Below, piece after piece: positions 56,521 to 64,000 of a stretch of 64,000 bases of DNA. Position 1 is the first letter of the stretch, and each line of letters starts with the position of its first letter. The translations under genes and the position numbers were made by a program. The DNA is from Rhodovulum visakhapatnamense (GTDB taxonomy: Bacteria > Pseudomonadota > Alphaproteobacteria > Rhodobacterales > Rhodobacteraceae), in NCBI RefSeq assembly GCF_004365965.1, contig NZ_SOEB01000009.1, forward strand, positions 1 through 64,000. Reading direction: 5' to 3'. The notes under the pieces are model-generated. The model did no database searches. It was not told the DNA's origin and saw only the letters and a list, made by a program, of their open reading frames with translations.

Positions 56521-57457
56521 GAATTTCCGGGTCTCGCCGGTTTTCAGCCGGGCGAAACAGGAAGTCACCTCCCTGCGCACGATCGGCACCAACACGCAAG
56601 GCGCCGCGTTGTTCACCGCCGCCATCGAGAAAACCGCCGCGTCCGAAAAGCCGATCACCGGACCCGGGCTGGCCGAGCCCCGATCACGACGAAGATGCAG
56701 AAGGTGACCTTGAAGATCCGCTCCTGCAGCCTGCCCCCGCCGAAAAGGCAGGCGGCCGCAAAGACGATGCCGGCGATCCAGCCCGGATCATCGCCGACAA
56801 GGCCAGAGATTTGCGCATGGGCCCGATTGGCCCGGACCATGTTGCCGCCGCCAAGCGCCCCGAGGATGCAAAAGACCGAGAACAGCTCCGCGAGACTGCG
56901 GCCGCCCTTCTTGCCGCGTTCGACAAAGCCCTTTTTCGTGGAGTACATCGGCCCGCCCGAGACGGTCCCGTCGGGGTATTCGTTGCGGTATTTGACCCCC
57001 AGCGTGCATTCTGTGAAACTTCGACGCCATTCCCGGAAGACCGGCAAGGAACATCCAGAACGCGGCCCCGGACCCGTCGATGCCGACGGCAACCGCCACG
57101 CCCGCGATATTGCCAGCCCGACAGCGCCGTGTCGAGCGCCTGGAAATGGCTGACCTCCCCGGCATCGTTCGGATCGGAATAATCGCCCCGGACCAGCGCA
57201 ATGGCGTGAAAGAAGGCGCGCACCTGGATCAGCCGGAAATACCAGGTGAAGACCGAGGCGGCCACCACCAGCCAGAGCACGATCCATGGAAAGCCGACGA
57301 ACGGGATCGGCGCGAAGATCAGCGCCACGAAGGGGCCGGTGACCGCGGCAAAGGCCTCGTTCACCCTGGCGTCGGCGGTTGCGGCCTTATGGGCAAAGGA
57401 CATCGCCGGGATCGTCGTCGCGGCTGCGAGGGCGGGGATGAATGTCGATCTGGTCAT
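56521..57457 (-). pseudogene. AGCS sodium:alanine symporter, decayed with internal deletion
   Basis: Pieces of one AGCS family gene lie in order on the minus strand in several frames. First come a leader and first segments (MTRSTFIPALAAATTIPAMS; FVALIFAPIPFVGFPWIVLW) and EVSHFQALDTALSG. A shift leads to GNIAGVAVAVGIDGSGAAFW, and another to TECTLGVKYRNEYPDGTVSG and LGGGNMVRANRAHAQISGLV. After GIVFAAA the sequence jumps to FKVTFCIFVVIG, a C-terminal block; roughly half of the normal ~500+ residues is missing. A third shift gives PVIGFSDAAVFSMAAVN and the end FARLKTGETRKF. Block order is from knowledge of the family. It no longer encodes a transporter. Confidence 0.8.
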
Positions 57458-57468
57458 CGCGGATCTCC

Positions 57469-57908
57469 TCAGCCGGCGACGGTGACGGGGATGGTCAAAT
57501 ACATCGCGAGGTTCACGCCGGACGAGCCGAAAAGCCGCTGGCTGAACCCGCCTTTCGAGGCGCGGCCGATCGCGATCAGGTCGGCGCCGTTTTCCTCGGC
57601 CAGCCGGTGCAGCTTGTCCGCGACATCGCCGTGATGGACGAACCCCGAGGCCGTGACCCCGGCCTTTGCGAGCGCCGCCACGGCCGGATCGACGATGCGG
57701 TCCTGCGCCGCCACGACCTCTTCCAGCCGCCGCTTGTGCCGCTCCGCGTTTTCCTCTGCCGTCTGAAAGGAATGGGGCGACCAGCCGATGACATAGACGA
57801 CAAGCAGGGCGGCGTCCTCCATCGCCGCGGTCAGTCGCTTTGCATGATCGAGCGCCCATCCGCCCGTCTCATGCCCATCTGATCCCACGAGAGCCTTCTT
57901 TGGGTCAT
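57469..57908 (-). pseudogene. Universal stress protein with frameshift at the start
   Basis: The frame ending at 57469 encodes a UspA-type protein: KKALVGSDGHETGGWALDHA, LVVYVIGWSPHSFQTAEENA, and the ATP-binding GRASKGGFSQRLFGSSGVN. The likely original start, ATG at 57908 with GGAGGG upstream, would begin M-T in this family. Yet it is out of frame with the body by one base and meets a stop after 25 codons. An in-frame start exists only farther upstream (57975), giving an odd N-terminal extension. The gene lies directly upstream of the AGCS pseudogene, an arrangement seen intact elsewhere, so the unit probably decayed together. It could still be expressed from another start. Confidence 0.6.
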
Positions 57909-58193
57909 CCCTCCGCTGTCGGTTTCTCCTGGTCGTTTTGGGTCGCGCATGTCCCGAAACGGCAGGCCGGATCATCACAAAAACGAAACTACTTGTTAAC
58001 GACCCCTGATGGCTCGCCCGCCACCTGCGGGAAAATGCGGTCAAACCGTGCAGGCGTCGGCCCTGTCGCCGCCAAGGCGGAGGGCGAAACACAGCGAGGG
58101 TTTCGTCGGGTGCAAGGCGCGGACTGACGGCAGGCGATGCCGCCGGGAACGGTACGTCCAATCGAACCGCGGCGCCGCCTGGCGCATCGCAAT

Positions 58194-58206
58194 TGACCTT
58201 AGGTCA
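58194..58206. promoter_or_regulatory. Perfect 13-bp palindrome in the divergent gap
   Basis: TGACCT-T-AGGTCA is a perfect 6-1-6 palindrome in the 411-bp gap between the divergent stress-protein start and the gene at 58320. The gap otherwise holds only an AT-rich patch (about 57975-58003) and no gene. It is a plausible operator for a dimeric regulator. Confidence 0.4.
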
Positions 58207-58319
58207 CCTTCGGCGCGTCACTCGGGTATTTCGCGGCCGCGTTTCTTTTCAGTGCGTTCAAGTAAGCCTCGCCGTCCGAGGCCCTTTTGACCCAAATCCT
58301 CTTTCCCCGGGAGGCGCCG

Positions 58320-59823
58320 ATGCCCGGCCCCGCAATGCATCGCATGATCGCCGACCGCCTGAAGGCCGCCATCCAAAGCGGGCGCGGGCTCGGCGAGGGT
58401 CCGGGACCGGACGAGTTCCAGAAACTGCAGGCCCTTCTGGCCGACCCGAAGAACCTGCCCTGCCTCTTTTCGGCTGCCACCGGCCGGACCCGTTCTTCTT
58501 CAACACCAGGGACCTGAACCCGACGGTCGGCAAGCTGGTCGAGATCTGTAACGACGTCGGCGACGTCATCGACGACTTCAAGGAGGCGCTGCTGTCGGTG
58601 GTCCCGCAGCGGGTTCCGGACGCGCTCAGGCCTTCGACGAGGCCGTGGACGAGGCGATCGAGGATTCCGCGCTGCTGAGCGAGCGGGAGCAGACCTTCAA
58701 TGACATCAACAACGTGCTGGTCGGGTTGCAGGCGACGCTGGCCGAGGCGCTGAAGGCCTTCGTGTCCGACTTCAACCTCTTCGACCGGATCTCGCCCCCC
58801 TGTCGCGACGGCGCCGCAGAGGGCGAGCGGCGGTGGTTCGACGCGATGCATTACCGCAAGACCGGGCGCATGGCCGAAGGGCTGCTGACCTCGACCCGCG
58901 ACATGTCCTCGCCGCATCACCTCTATGCGCTGGGCTACCTGCCCCACGACCGCGCCACCGGTGTGCGGCCGTTCTCGGGGATCACCTTCTGGCATTCGCC
59001 CGACCTGATGCTGTCGCCGGTCACCAATCTCGGCACCGCGAAGGTCGAGCATTTCCTTGTCGATCCGACCATCGGCTTTTCCACCCAGTTCGCCGAGAAC
59101 CTGACGCTTGCGAGGGTACCCCAGGCCTTCGTGCCGGCGCTGGGGGCTGCCGAAACCCGGTTCGTCTGGACCGTTCCGCCCAGCCAGTCGGGCCATAAAT
59201 GCCTGTTCGCACGGGTCTTCTCGTTCTCGCCGCTGGATCTGCCGGTCGACGATGTCGCGCTCGATCCCCGGCTCGACCGCCATGTCGCCCAGCTGAACCT
59301 CGACATCCTCGGGCAGGCGCAGGCGGTCAATTTCAACCTCGTGCACCGGGCCAATGCCCGGATCGACCTGACGATCCGCGCCTTGCAACCGACCGAGCTG
59401 ATGGCCCTGCGGCATCCGGCGCTGGCCGGGATCGCGCCCTTCCCAGACATTCCCAAACGCGGATGGGCCGAGCTGAGGCTTCGCAAGGGCGGGGGCGAGG
59501 TCAAGGCCGAACCCATGCCCGAGGGCCTGCGGCTGTCGATCACCGGGCGCGGCATATCGCTTGACGACCAGAAGCAATTGGGCGGAGCGATGCGCGCGGT
59601 GCTGAGGGCGATCGGCGCGGGCAAGACCCAGGCCTTGGCCCATCGCGATCTCTTCGCGCGGTTCCGCGAGATGACGCGCGAGGCCAGGCAAACCCGGCTC
59701 TCGCTGCGGACCCCGCGGCTGGGCATCCCGAAGGGCCAGGCCATCGGCGTCGAGGTGATCGGGATCGATCAGGTCGCGGGCGACGGACCGATGGGCGGGC
59801 TGACGCTGGTCGTGTCCGGCTGA
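58320..59823 (+). pseudogene. Large hypothetical (MPGPAMH-type N-terminus) with two frameshifts
   Basis: The combined translation (~500 residues) begins MPGPAMHRMIADRLKAAIQ after a GGGAGG ribosome-binding site. The first frame is lost near 58475 in CTCTTTTCGGC. The second frame supplies DPFFFNTRDLNPTVGKLVEI and DVIDDFKEALLSVVPQRVPD. From about 58625 a third frame carries on as EAIEDSALLSEREQTFNDIN and the 390-residue remainder (WFDAMHYRKTGRMAEGLLTS, GYLPHDRATGVRPFSGITFW). Each shift looks like a single-base change. I know the N-terminal pattern from large uncharacterised bacterial proteins but no function. No catalytic motif is assigned with confidence; HYRKTG and H-x-P-D patches could hold a metal site. 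The 3' frame is still fully open. Confidence 0.65.
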
Positions 59824-59827
59824 CCCA

Positions 59828-59852
59828 TCCGGGCCCGCCTCAAGGCGGCCCG
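59828..59852. terminator. Hairpin between the converging genes
   Basis: CCGGGC plus CGCC pair with GGCG plus GCCCGG around a TCAA loop, with one unpaired C in the left arm. It lies between the plus-strand stop at 59823 and overlaps the helicase stop at 59840. No T run is present on either side. Confidence 0.4.
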
Positions 59853-62800
59853 GGCCTTGCGGGTGCGCCCGATGCCAGCAGGTCCTGCCTGCGGAATACC
59901 AGTTCGGGCAGGATCGTCTCCCATTCGTCGCGGCGGATATAGGTCTGGAAGGCCTCGTCGTTGTCGGTTTTGCGCCAGCGTATGACCGCCCCGACCCTTC
60001 CCGAGACCAGACCGGTGCCCTCGGGCGGCGCCCAGGTCCTGGCCATGCAGCCCAGCACCCGGCCCTGCCCGTCGAGGATCCTCCATTTCCCGCCTTGCAG
60101 GTCCAGCGTGACCGGGTCGCCGACCTTGGCCGCGGCGATGGCGCCAAGGGTCGCGTTCCCGTCGCGCAGACGCCCGGCATAGGACAGATCGACCGAGGCC
60201 AAGTCCGGCACCTGATACTGGTCGGGCTCGGGCAGATCGAGCCTGCGCGGCATCTCGACCTTGCGCAGCACCTCGCTTTCGGAATCCGCAATCACGAAGG
60301 CATGCGCCCCGCTGGTCACCACCGCGAGGCTGCGCCGCGCGCGGGTCATGGCGACGTAGAAAAGGCGGCGTGGCGCCTCGCCGTCCTCGCCGCGCGACAG
60401 CGCCTTCCAGCCGCCGTTCAGGATCACCACATGGTCGAATTCCAGCCCCTTGGACCGATGCGCGGTCAGCAGCAAAAGGCCTTGTTGCGCCTCGCGGATA
60501 TCCCGCGCCCATTCGGCCAGCCATTCGATGGCGTCGGGAACCGGGATGGTCTTGCCGCCCAGCTCGCGCGCGAGGCCGCCGATGCCTTCGGCCAGCAGAT
60601 CGACCCAACGGTTCGGCGCCTCGGCGTTCAGCAGATCGAGGATGTCCTGGATCGACAGCATCGCCGTCGGGCGGGCGCGCAACCCCGCCACGAGGCGCTG
60701 CATCTCGCGCAAGCGCCAGACGCTTGGCAGTTTTTCGTTGGCCATCTCGACCGGCACCCCAAGCCTTTCGGCATAGGCGCGCACCGGGCCAAGCCGCCGC
60801 CAGTCCCGCGAGACGATGGCGCAGCGGCCCCAGTTGAAATCGGGGTCGAGCCGCGAGATCCGGACCAGTTCGTCGACCGCCGCCACCGCCTGGGCCCGGT
60901 CGTCCTCGGCCACGTCGAGGAACTGCACCCGCCCACGGCCCACCGGGTCGTGGCCCGCCATTGCGCCGCCGCCGGGGTCGAGACGGCGGGCAGTGTCCAC
61001 GGTGATCTCGTGCCCGGCCTTCATCCGGCCCCGCGCGGGTTCGATCACCTGATTGGCCGCGTCGATGATGTACCGGGTCGAGCGGTAATTCTCGGTCAGG
61101 AACTTGGGCTTCGCGCGGTAGTCTTCCTCGAACTGGCGGATGTAGGAAATCGAGGCCCCGGCAAAGGCATAGATGTTCTGGTCGTCATCGCCCACGGCAA
61201 AAAGGCTCAGGCGCTGGTCGGGGTCCTCGAGCGAGCGACCGGCGACGGCGGCGATCAGCGCATATTCCTCTGGGCCGATATCCTGGTATTCGTCGACGAG
61301 GATCCAGCGGTAGCCCTGGATCAGCGCCTCGCGCTGCGCCTCGGCCTCGGACCGGCTGAGGCCCTCGCCGGTGATCTGGCGCACCGCCTCCAGCAGGATC
61401 CCGTCGAAATCGCGCGTCTCGGCCGCGCTGTCGGCGAAACTGGCCCCGACCAGCCGCATCGCCAGCGCATGACAGGTCGACACGGTGACCCGCGCCGCAT
61501 CCTCGCCGACCAGACCGCGCAGACGGGTGCGGATCTCGGCCGCGGCATGGCGGTTATAGGTCAGCACAAGGATCCCTTGCGGATCCTCGCGCTTGACGCG
61601 CAGCAGATAGGCGATGCGATGCACCAGAACCCGCGTCTTGCCCGAGCCGGGCCCGGCCAGCACCAGCACATTGGTCTCTTCGCGGTCGTCGGCCACGATC
61701 TCTTGCTGGACCGGATTGCCCAGATCCTCGACGATCTGCTTCCAGGCCTTGCCGGTGGTCTGACGGCGGATCTCGATGCCGCGGCCGGGCATCCAGCGTT
61801 GCAGAAAGCGGTCCTGGTCCAGCGCGAAATAGTCTTCCGACAGGCGCACCGCCTCGTCGATGCGGTCCAGCCCCCTGTCGGCATAGGCCGCCATCACATG
61901 GGTCTGAAGCGTCTGTTCGCGGTAATGTTCCTCCAGCGGCAGGAAGTCCTTCCTGGTGAAGCCCGCCCGCCCGGGCTTGAGCTCGATGGTCATGGCCGAC
62001 CGGAACACCGTCAGCCCCTTGCCCAGCACCACCGCCTGCTGTTCGTGCAGCCACAACAGCGCGCGTTCCATGAGCTTGGTCATGTCCTTCACGCCCGCGT
62101 CCCGGATCAGCGCATCGCCGGTCAGCGCCCCCAGCAGCGCGCCCGCGGTCGTCTCGACCTGAATATCCTTGCCTTTCGTGCCGGGCGGCACCTTGGCGAT
62201 CAGCAGATCCAGAAGCTTTTCGGCCGCCATCCAGCGCACCGAAGCCGTCTGTTCCACGACCCGCCACGTTCGCTGAAGCACCACCTCCAGCGTCTTGGCG
62301 GACAGCTTGCGCAGCCGGATATTGCCGAAGCCCCCGTCGCTGTCGCGCCCGTCCCGTTCGATGCTGCGCAAGAGCCTTTCCAGAACATGGGGGCTTGCCT
62401 CCTCATGGCCTTCGCCGCGCAGACACTGGCTGGCCGCCGCCAGATCGAGCGGCGCGCCATCGCCCACTCCGGTGTCGGGCGCAAGCTCGCGCATCCGGGC
62501 GACCAGCGCCTCTTCCAGCCGCATCGCGCGCCTCATGCGCTGGCGCGACTGGTTCTCGACGCCGACATGCACCGAAACGGTGATGGCGATGTCGTTGCGC
62601 GCAATCCCCAGCGTTTCGAGATCCGCCATCGCCTTGCTCAGCGCCCGGTGCGTCAGCCCGCTGATCCCGGTCAGCTCGTCGGTGGTAATCCCCCGGTCGG
62701 GCGGCGTCGCCATCACATGGCGCACGATGCTCAGAAGCTGGTCGCGCCGCGTCGTGCTGATGTCGTCCCGGGTCAGGCGGGTTTCGGCCTCGGCCAGGGT

Positions 62801-64000
62801 GCGCACCAGGAGCGACGAGGGAAACACCTGCACCCGGTTTTCCTCGCGCGAGACCAGAGCCGCCTCTTCCAGCCACGAGACGGCCGTCTTGATGCGGGTG
62901 TCATCGGTCGCGCTGTCGCGCACGAAGTCGCGCTCCTTTTCCTCGCGCATGATTTCGCCCGGGGTCGCGACCACCCTGCCGCTGTTGCGGGTATGTTCGT
63001 CGATCCGGCGCAGGGCCCTGAGAATGGCGCCGATTTCCCGCTGCGTGAGGCGCGAGCGCGCGGTCAGCGTGAACTGCCGTTCGACATCGTCCGACAGGTA
63101 CAGCAACACACAATCGGCCGGATCGCGGTCGCGCCCCGCCCGCCCGGCCTCCTGCAGGTAGTTCTCCAGCGATCCGGGAATGTCGGCATGGACCACCAGG
63201 CGAATGTCGGGCTTGTCGATGCCCATGCCGAAAGCGTTGGTCGCCGCGATCACCCGCAACGCGCCCCGGCGAAACCGGTCCTGCACCGCCAGCTTGTCGT
63301 CGGCGGTCAGACCTGCGTGAAAATGCGCGGCGGCAAGCCCCTGATCCTTGAGAAACTGCGCCACGCGTTCGGTTTCGTTTCGGGTGGCGCAATAGACCAC
63401 CGCGCCCGACGTGTCGCCCTTGGGCAATCGGTCGGACAGGACCGTCAGGATGTCACTCAGCTTGCTTTCCTTGCCGGTCGGCTGCACCGAGAAGGTCAGG
63501 TTGGTCCGCGTGGCCCCGCCATCGAACAGCCGCAGCTCGACGCCCAGCCGGTCGCGGAAATGGTCGGTGATGTCGCGCACCACCTCGGGTTTCGCGGTGG
63601 CCGTCAGGCACAGCACCGGCGCGGGTGCGGCATCGCCCGAAAACTCGCGGACGAAGCGCCCGACATAGCGGTAGTCCGGCCGGAAATCGTGCCCCCATTT
63701 CGAAACGCAATGCGCCTCGTCCAGCACCCAGAGCCCGACCTCGCGCTGCGCCAGCACCGACCGGACCGAGACGCTGCGCAGTTGCTCGGGCGAAATCAGA
63801 AGGATCGCCGCCTGCCCCAGCCGCACCCGGTCCAGCGCGTCCTGCCGTTCGGGCATCGACAGCATCCCGTTGACGGTCACCGCGGACGAGATCCCGGCCC
63901 GTTCCATCCCCTGCACCTGGTCGGCCATCAGCGCCACCAGAGGCGAGATCACCACCGTCAGCGCGCCGGTCTTCTCGTAAAGGCTGAGCGCCGGAACCTG
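59840..64000 (-). CDS. RecQ-UvrD fused helicase, partial (5' end beyond the window)
   Basis: At least 1386 residues are visible; the N-terminus with the first Walker A is off the right edge. Part 1 is a RecQ helicase: ISPLVALMADQVQGMERAGI, the DEAH box VLDEAHCVSKWGHDFRPDY, and HAGLTADDKLAVQDRFRRGA. Part 1 ends with NAFGMGIDKPDIRLVVHADIP and the Q-E-x-G-RAGRD motif. A middle region (winged-helix-like, about 62.9-61.8 kb) has no family I can name. Part 2 is a complete SF1 UvrD helicase: AGPGSGKTRVLVHRIAYLL, ILVDEYQDIGPEEYALI, GDDDQNIYAFAGASISYIRQ, LTENYRSTRYI, LLTAHRSKGLEFDHVVI and FYVAMTRARRSL. Both engines in one chain are unusual and are found in genomic islands. Function in repair or defence is inferred. 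Confidence 0.9.
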   Translation of the reverse strand, partial: QVPALSLYEKTGALTVVISPLVALMADQVQGMERAGISSAVTVNGMLSMPERQDALDRVRLGQAAILLISPEQLRSVSVRSVLAQREVGLWVLDEAHCVSKWGHDFRPDYRYVGRFVREFSGDAAPAPVLCLTATAKPEVVRDITDHFRDRLGVELRLFDGGATRTNLTFSVQPTGKESKLSDILTVLSDRLPKGDTSGAVVYCATRNETERVAQFLKDQGLAAAHFHAGLTADDKLAVQDRFRRGALRVIAATNAFGMGIDKPDIRLVVHADIPGSLENYLQEAGRAGRDRDPADCVLLYLSDDVERQFTLTARSRLTQREIGAILRALRRIDEHTRNSGRVVATPGEIMREEKERDFVRDSATDDTRIKTAVSWLEEAALVSREENRVQVFPSSLLVRTLAEAETRLTRDDISTTRRDQLLSIVRHVMATPPDRGITTDELTGISGLTHRALSKAMADLETLGIARNDIAITVSVHVGVENQSRQRMRRAMRLEEALVARMRELAPDTGVGDGAPLDLAAASQCLRGEGHEEASPHVLERLLRSIERDGRDSDGGFGNIRLRKLSAKTLEVVLQRTWRVVEQTASVRWMAAEKLLDLLIAKVPPGTKGKDIQVETTAGALLGALTGDALIRDAGVKDMTKLMERALLWLHEQQAVVLGKGLTVFRSAMTIELKPGRAGFTRKDFLPLEEHYREQTLQTHVMAAYADRGLDRIDEAVRLSEDYFALDQDRFLQRWMPGRGIEIRRQTTGKAWKQIVEDLGNPVQQEIVADDREETNVLVLAGPGSGKTRVLVHRIAYLLRVKREDPQGILVLTYNRHAAAEIRTRLRGLVGEDAARVTVSTCHALAMRLVGASFADSAAETRDFDGILLEAVRQITGEGLSRSEAEAQREALIQGYRWILVDEYQDIGPEEYALIAAVAGRSLEDPDQRLSLFAVGDDDQNIYAFAGASISYIRQFEEDYRAKPKFLTENYRSTRYIIDAANQVIEPARGRMKAGHEITVDTARRLDPGGGAMAGHDPVGRGRVQFLDVAEDDRAQAVAAVDELVRISRLDPDFNWGRCAIVSRDWRRLGPVRAYAERLGVPVEMANEKLPSVWRLREMQRLVAGLRARPTAMLSIQDILDLLNAEAPNRWVDLLAEGIGGLARELGGKTIPVPDAIEWLAEWARDIREAQQGLLLLTAHRSKGLEFDHVVILNGGWKALSRGEDGEAPRRLFYVAMTRARRSLAVVTSGAHAFVIADSESEVLRKVEMPRRLDLPEPDQYQVPDLASVDLSYAGRLRDGNATLGAIAAAKVGDPVTLDLQGGKWRILDGQGRVLGCMARTWAPPEGTGLVSGRVGAVIRWRKTDNDEAFQTYIRRDEWETILPELVFRRQDLLASGAPARPGPP

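Follow-up and report, generated by a model that had tools for sequence, protein, structure and literature searches.

In a Rhodovulum visakhapatnamense contig of 148,268 bases, the first 64,000, referred to here as the window, end inside a reverse-strand gene for a giant helicase, whose start was located by reading the contig beyond the window. The gene is intact, extends from an ATG at contig base 65014 down to base 59840, and encodes 1724 residues arranged as a DEDD-exonuclease-like N-terminus, a RecQ-type superfamily 2 (SF2) motor, a linker of ~440 residues and a UvrD-type superfamily 1 (SF1) motor (Exo-RecQ-UvrD). Its motor motifs are intact, it is under purifying selection, and it is a patchy, mobile, stand-alone accessory gene probably spread by horizontal transfer, with defence genes recurring nearby in part of its relatives. 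We lean towards reading the product as a single-chain enzyme that dismantles the DNA intermediates of invaders, a defence role being plausible, not proven.

Architecture and conservation of the helicase

Within the window, the frame at 59840-64000 (minus strand) is free of stops up to the window edge and holds the 3' (C-terminal) 1386 of the gene's 1724 codons. Four Pfam families match along the one chain: DEAD at residues 308-479, Helicase_C at 530-628, UvrD-helicase with its best stretch at 1099-1192, and UvrD_C at 1510-1565. Delimited by Pfam, NCBIfam and conservation, the RecQ-type motor spans residues about 289-655, most of which is encoded in the window (from residue 339; 63050-64000). 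The linker (residues about 656-1098) follows at 61721-63049, and the UvrD-type motor (residues about 1099-1565, delimited by Pfam, motifs and conservation) at 60320-61720. The C-terminal 159 residues (59843-60319), without a family match, are among the least conserved parts of the protein; all these segments lie on the minus strand. Residues 1-285, 650-1095 and 1575-1724 match no Pfam family above its cut-off (the linker gives one chance-level match, E 0.24), and PADLOC likewise yields nothing at E ≤ 1 for the N-terminal, linker and C-terminal parts. The linker is weakly modelled (mean predicted local distance difference test score, pLDDT, 67.4) and has no fold match better than E 0.029; from such weak matches one might guess at several winged helices.

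An initial annotation, made from the window alone, had proposed a RecQ SF2 unit and a complete UvrD SF1 unit in one chain beginning beyond position 64000. Both proposals are borne out by Pfam and NCBIfam matches above cut-offs and by the start codon at 65014; the chain, at 1724 residues, is larger than stated, and the exonuclease-like N-terminus, encoded outside the window, was not part of that description. The first motor belongs to the RecQ family (SF2), scoring 296 bits against NCBIfam TIGR00614 (recq_fam, 'RecQ family ATP-dependent DNA helicase'; cut-off 220). The equivalog model for DNA helicase RecQ, TIGR01389, is not reached (352 bits against a cut-off of 640). The second belongs to the UvrD/Rep family (SF1A), with PF00580 at 142.6 bits and PF13361 at 52.1 bits, both above cut-offs. 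The RecQ motor carries DEAH at 432-435, a SKWGHDFRPDY loop and a QEAGRAGRD motif VI, and the UvrD motor carries GPGSGKT, DEYQD, NYRST, TAHRSKGLEF and FYVAMTRAR. Helicases of the RecQ and UvrD families move 3' to 5'.

Relatives were collected from one genome per species, where at least 579 stretches encode one (at least 595 candidates), and 80 were kept. The whole architecture lies in one frame in 68 of these 80; the other 12 are split, truncated or cut by contig ends. With the window protein, the 68 form a set of 69 full-length proteins, all from Alphaproteobacteria except one record titled Exiguobacterium. The RecQ Walker A lysine, DEAH, Q621 and R628 are present in all 69, and G624 and R625 in 68 (one gap). 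On the UvrD side, Walker A, DEYQD, the motif IV arginine and R1558 of motif VI are invariant. Flanking motor positions, such as T330, T332 and R1560, vary. Between the window copy and that of Rhodovulum tesquicola, the ratio of nonsynonymous to synonymous substitution rates (dN/dS) is 0.19 over 1716 codons, so the frame encodes a protein under selection and is not a chance frame; by part, the ratio is about 0.15 for RecQ, 0.13 for UvrD and 0.21 for the exonuclease-like domain.

Among sequences of the Protein Data Bank (PDB), 46 match at E ≤ 1e-20, each with its best match inside residues 273-665 (RecQ, RECQ1, RECQ4, RECQ5, BLM and WRN) or 1099-1332 (UvrD, PcrA and Rep); no fusion protein is listed among these 46.

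The N-terminal exonuclease-like domain

The N-terminal domain contains D25-L-E27, G-H-N77-x4-D82 and N134-x4-D139, which, judged by the known patterns, we take to be motifs Exo I, II and III of DEDD exonucleases. The four acidic DEDD residues, D25, E27, D82 and D139, are kept in all 69 full-length proteins and in all 14 of a cross-phylum alignment that takes in Thiothrix, Allochromatium, Scytonema, Bacteroides and Deinococcus. The patterns DxE, GHNxxxxD and NxxxxD are common to these 14, from Proteobacteria to Deinococcus. At the position five before the last aspartate, usually histidine in DEDDh enzymes, stands Asn134 (69/69 and 14/14), which is neither that histidine nor the tyrosine of the DEDDy type; the partial relative L049 has serine there in the alignment. 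The asparagine at the catalytic histidine position suggests that the domain is not a constitutive nuclease but either an exonuclease that is slow or gated, or a sensor of 3' ends. Cysteines 212, 271, 276 and 279 are invariant in all 69 proteins and absent from the Scytonema and Deinococcus proteins; they would be compatible with a zinc site.

For the R. tesquicola domain, an AlphaFold model built with 50 sequences has a mean pLDDT of 83.6 and a strand-helix order that fits an RNase H-like fold. Its fold matches (the best 50 of 251) are mostly proteins with DEDD exonuclease domains, but are weak, at E 0.02 or worse and with TM-scores by query length of at most 0.35. Among these 50 are E. coli Pol II, archaeal B-family polymerases, S. 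aureus DinG, a TREX1 homolog and T7 DNA polymerase, together with one Pol theta chain, retroviral integrases and a bridge-RNA recombinase. A profile of the exonuclease-like domain finds nothing significant among PDB sequences (best E 0.29).

Patchy distribution and carriage by mobile elements

Within the genus, the linker is matched in 5 of 16 genomes, that of R. visakhapatnamense included, and in one of them (G005) the match runs only as far as a contig end. All 16 have a RecQ match in a separate frame, 684-762 codons long. The neighbouring FtsX gene is present in 15 of the 16 genomes, against 5 for the linker, which rules out a conserved core helicase. Among seven other genomes of the genus inspected at the FtsX locus (G014, G001, G015, G013, G005, G003 and G007), only G014 has helicase sequence there. 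In that genome, a decayed remnant covering residues 1-104, 192-382, 470-564 and 1555-1720 occupies the position corresponding to that of the window copy (L163 9296-10808, G014:C3). The neighbours of this remnant are also decayed.

Where G008, G004 and G178 carry the helicase, the stretch lacks all 13 other genes used for comparison (E 1e-8, >35% identity); the gene therefore moves. The initial annotation had held that a lone helicase gene, conserved at the same place in every relative between core genes, would speak against defence. The gene is solitary, but the linker is unmatched in 11 of the 16 genus genomes, and other species that carry the gene have it at different loci, so that picture does not describe it. 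Across the class, 11 of 385 genomes match at E ≤ 1e-82, and the family as a whole spans five phyla or classes, widespread but patchy and at different loci.

The gene also travels on plasmids and in viral contigs. Matches occur in 185 of 72,556 plasmid records, and 19 of these hold at least 80% of the protein. Four of 23 candidate viral stretches encode the helicase, three of them nearly complete and the fourth running into a contig end. In one (L174), portal and terminase genes lie beside it; in another (L173, 1928-4004), a phage endonuclease-like gene, an O-like replication initiator gene and a phrog_9306 gene precede it. By eye, a gene similar to that before the L173 helicase also precedes the helicase of L064. 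With phage genes before it in L173 and the similar gene in L064, the helicase can therefore be prophage cargo. Of 50,697 phage records, 25 give a match; in no case is 80% of the query covered, and the 15 listed align with the RecQ part.

Such carriage raises the possibility that the protein serves the mobile element itself as a plasmid or prophage replication or maintenance helicase. Apart from the 19 plasmid records, this would suit the L173 copy, one gene after the O-like initiator, and Deinococcus plasmid p96k, where a replication initiator adjoins the helicase gene. We consider it improbable, as some copies are chromosomal (in G178, on one contig of 4.19 Mb) and the nine annotated plasmid stretches share no constant replication partner.

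Two relatives deserve separate mention. The helicase of a record titled Exiguobacterium profundum (L083) nests among those of Rhodobacteraceae, and the assembly is probably mislabelled. In L010 and L068 the helicase match stops after residue 712, within 90 bases of a contig end, as if a repeat had been inserted.

Defence genes near relatives of the helicase

The neighbours of the 80 loci were clustered, and each recurring family was identified through one representative. The commonest families occur at only 10, 9, 8 and 7 of the 80 loci, which rules out a constant operon partner: these are ABC transporter genes (by eye; 10), a PLD-helicase (9), an insertion-sequence gene (by eye; 8) and an HNH nuclease (7). 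The PLD-helicase, a PLD-ResIII-DUF3427 protein, resembles a PADLOC type IV restriction model. In four of its seven loci the HNH gene lies 11 bp before the helicase open frame. A DUF4011-MTES_1575-DUF3320 protein matching PDC-S37 is present at six loci, in three of which its gene precedes the helicase frame by 0 or 81 bp, and five loci have a WYL regulator. Together, these four recurring defence-like families mark 25 of the 80 loci. The HNH, PLD and DUF4011 labels, on 7, 7 and 5 rows of a quick helicase tree, require 3, 4 and 3 changes, and the pairings therefore arose or were lost more than once. At five loci with the PLD-helicase (L098, L100, L101, L108 and L119), the nearest upstream gene is a divergent one of 196-197 residues, by eye an S-adenosylmethionine-dependent methyltransferase; L108 also has Dsr1. 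Two neighbour proteins at L134 have no match in the PDB.

An enrichment test compared 218 proteins near the helicase, from 20 loci drawn at random among 42 eligible, with 218 proteins from 16 of 20 random regions of genomes of the class. At E ≤ 1e-25, 39 and 32 PADLOC families were matched near helicases and 4 and 9 in controls. At E ≤ 1e-100, 15 families were matched near helicases against one in controls; this corresponds to 8-10 of 218 proteins, an estimate since family matches came without member names, against 1 of 218. Matches near helicases include type III Mod and Res, a type IV-like restriction endonuclease, Septu PtuA, Lamassu LmuA/B/C, DrmD, Upx, PDC-S06 and PDC-S37. Control matches are PDC-S36, PDC-M41B, PDC-M30B, mad2, a type II methyltransferase, DrmA, PDC-M37B, DolB and MzaA. 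Helicase sequence is present elsewhere in three of the control genomes (G014, G178 and G285).

Plasmid neighbourhoods were read in nine annotated stretches, two further records carrying no annotation. On a Scytonema plasmid (L177 1-7661), DISARM-like drmA, drmB and phospholipase D genes are followed by two genes and then the helicase, all on one strand; compared with solved structures, the neighbours match DrmA at E 4e-167 (partial query) and DrmB at E 5e-97. CRISPR type I-D genes lie about 4 kb from the helicase on a Thiothrix plasmid, and a type I restriction operon accompanies it on an Allochromatium plasmid. Toxin-antitoxin-type genes are near it on Cereibacter, Sulfitobacter and Rhizobium plasmids, and nothing is annotated as defence in the Microvirga, Bacteroides and Deinococcus plasmid stretches.

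Possible mode of action and alternatives

If the protein acts against invaders, its two motors would engage invading or abnormally replicating DNA, such as that of a phage or plasmid, at forks or single-stranded ends and unwind it, opening forks or ends processively. The 3' end could be fed to, or held in, the N-terminal DEDD site, where the change from histidine to asparagine might slow hydrolysis and make the site a gated nuclease or an end sensor. In this way, the replication or recombination intermediates of the invader would be taken apart. In most hosts the helicase probably works by itself, and in some lineages it may pair with nucleases (HNH or DUF4011-MTES_1575). A more ambitious proposal, possible though doubtful, is a cross-phylum single-gene immune enzyme combining two unwinding motors with a new Asn-type DEDD subclass that would sense or slowly trim 3' ends. 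It would work alone for the most part and would have been recruited in some lineages into two-gene systems with an HNH or DUF4011-MTES_1575 nuclease.

Several observations weigh against a role in defence. Scans around the window copy turned up no defence gene. None of the four recurring defence-like families is present at 55 of the 80 loci, and the nearest neighbours are otherwise very varied across them. The enrichment is modest (Fisher p 0.011, 0.020 and 0.037 for 10, 9 and 8 proteins), was tested in the same 80 loci in which the idea arose, and used controls from other genomes of the class. Defence proximity may only reflect the piling up of accessory genes in islands, and carriage by prophages and plasmids also fits an aid to replication or recombination. 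The fold match of the N-terminal domain is not significant alone, none of the 251 matches reaching E 0.001.

The 55 loci would suit a DNA repair or recombination accessory, a WRN-like exonuclease-RecQ unit with a UvrD motor acting at stalled forks or in break resection, and mobile because it is useful under DNA damage. All three activities are repair activities. In WRN, an N-terminal DEDD-type exonuclease likewise precedes the RecQ motor, and WRN chains match residues 273-650 of the RecQ half. The WRN exonuclease is of the DEDDy type, where the window protein has asparagine in place of the tyrosine, and WRN is not known to have a UvrD motor. Repair seems rather unlikely as the main role, given that the gene is absent from most genus genomes while all 16 have a separate RecQ-sized frame, that its loci vary, that the G014 copy has decayed, and that defence-model matches exceed those of the controls.

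The architecture kept from Alphaproteobacteria to Deinococcus, together with absence from most genus and class genomes sampled, is the pattern of a defence or selfish-element gene. An SF2 and an SF1 motor joined to an exonuclease-like domain in one chain would represent a one-gene counterpart of multi-subunit resection machines, of which RecBCD is an example. The asparagine poses a direct question as to how DEDD nucleases can be tuned.

Comparison with known systems

The Exo-RecQ-UvrD family was found unnamed and is a variant of helicase-nuclease proteins. RefSeq/PGAP records hold proteins of the same family, length and architecture, for example a 'RecQ family ATP-dependent DNA helicase' of about 1700 residues on Cereibacter plasmid pORIO1 (WP_238823584.1). 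They are named from the RecQ half only, and the records examined give no function. More generally, the annotated records examined conceal the fusion under 'RecQ' or 'UvrD'. In the paper listings and passages searched, no RecQ-UvrD fusion of this kind is named. Among these passages, PMC9122126 has RecQ in its reference list only, PMC5512222 reports a giant plasmid protein that unites a UvrD-like helicase with SWI2/SNF2 helicases, not RecQ with UvrD, and PMC12458937 deals with a UvrD helicase joined to an RNase domain (ArmD).

Two characterized proteins offer precedents. Hna, likened here to the helicase family by published description and not by sequence, acts in anti-phage defence as a 3'-5' single-stranded DNA exonuclease with ATPase activity, as far as the consulted part of its description goes (PMC13381803), and is a precedent for a defence protein with both kinds of site. 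S. aureus DinG, whose chain is among the best fold matches, is a precedent for the exonuclease-helicase fusion, sharing a DEDD exonuclease joined to an SF2 motor; it differs in its DEDDh site, in a DinG-type motor reported as 5'-3', and in having no second motor, according to the portion of the report consulted (PMC12345164). In PADLOC, the RecQ half of the whole protein matches the DpdF and PsyrT profiles and the UvrD half matches GajB. These matches are confined to the motors, and the partners of those systems were not seen here.

The initial annotation had likened the protein to the helicase of Shango, which, in the part of the source consulted, is a three-gene system of a TerB protein, an ATPase and a helicase (PMC10250203). 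In favour of the likeness stands a large helicase in an accessory region, and the two would be alike as large defence helicases if the present one is also a defence protein. The comparison fails on the evidence, and an SngC-like Shango helicase is scarcely credible here. The neighbouring genes scanned right and left of the window copy include neither a TerB-domain SngA nor a partner ATPase, and no operon of the helicase with TerB and an SngB-type ATPase appears in the annotated stretches of relatives. The nearby ATPase is FtsE-like, divergent, behind a zinc-ribbon gene, and is not an SngB in an operon with the helicase. The non-motor regions match no PADLOC family, and SngC is not among the 25 of 89 PADLOC matches listed for the whole protein. 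The motor here is RecQ-type, whereas SngC is placed with BrxHI, DruE and DpdJ in another SF2 clade in the section consulted of PMC12278908. In P. aeruginosa PA14, a separate 'large multi-domain helicase' (PA14_RS11730) lies next to Shango in cDHS1 (PMC10250203, in the part consulted).

Surroundings of the window copy

The window copy lies beside a core block, at an edge of synteny. The initial annotation had seen the edge of a decayed region and a possible defence island. The decayed edge and the accessory nature of the gene stand, but no defence gene adjoins the window copy, and an island would be inferred from relatives. Of three accessory genes it had described as damaged, two are broken. 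A gene convergent with the helicase (58193-59823, plus strand; largest piece 58645-59823) is spread over three frames and matches its G014 counterpart, itself also split, in several different frames. A sodium:alanine symporter gene (about 56.5-57.9 kb, with a fragment at 56655-57287 on the minus strand) likewise matches its G014 counterpart in several different frames. The third, a universal stress protein gene (57469-58161, minus strand), need not be damaged, since it matches the Usp Pfam domain over positions 3-139 of 141, along nearly the full length of the gene. Left of the helicase gene, the order is thus the broken open reading frame, the Usp gene, the broken symporter, a GGDEF-EAL gene and a YkuD_2 gene. 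To the right lie an MJ0042 zinc-ribbon gene, FtsE-like and FtsX-like genes, two open reading frames of no clear family and metabolic genes.

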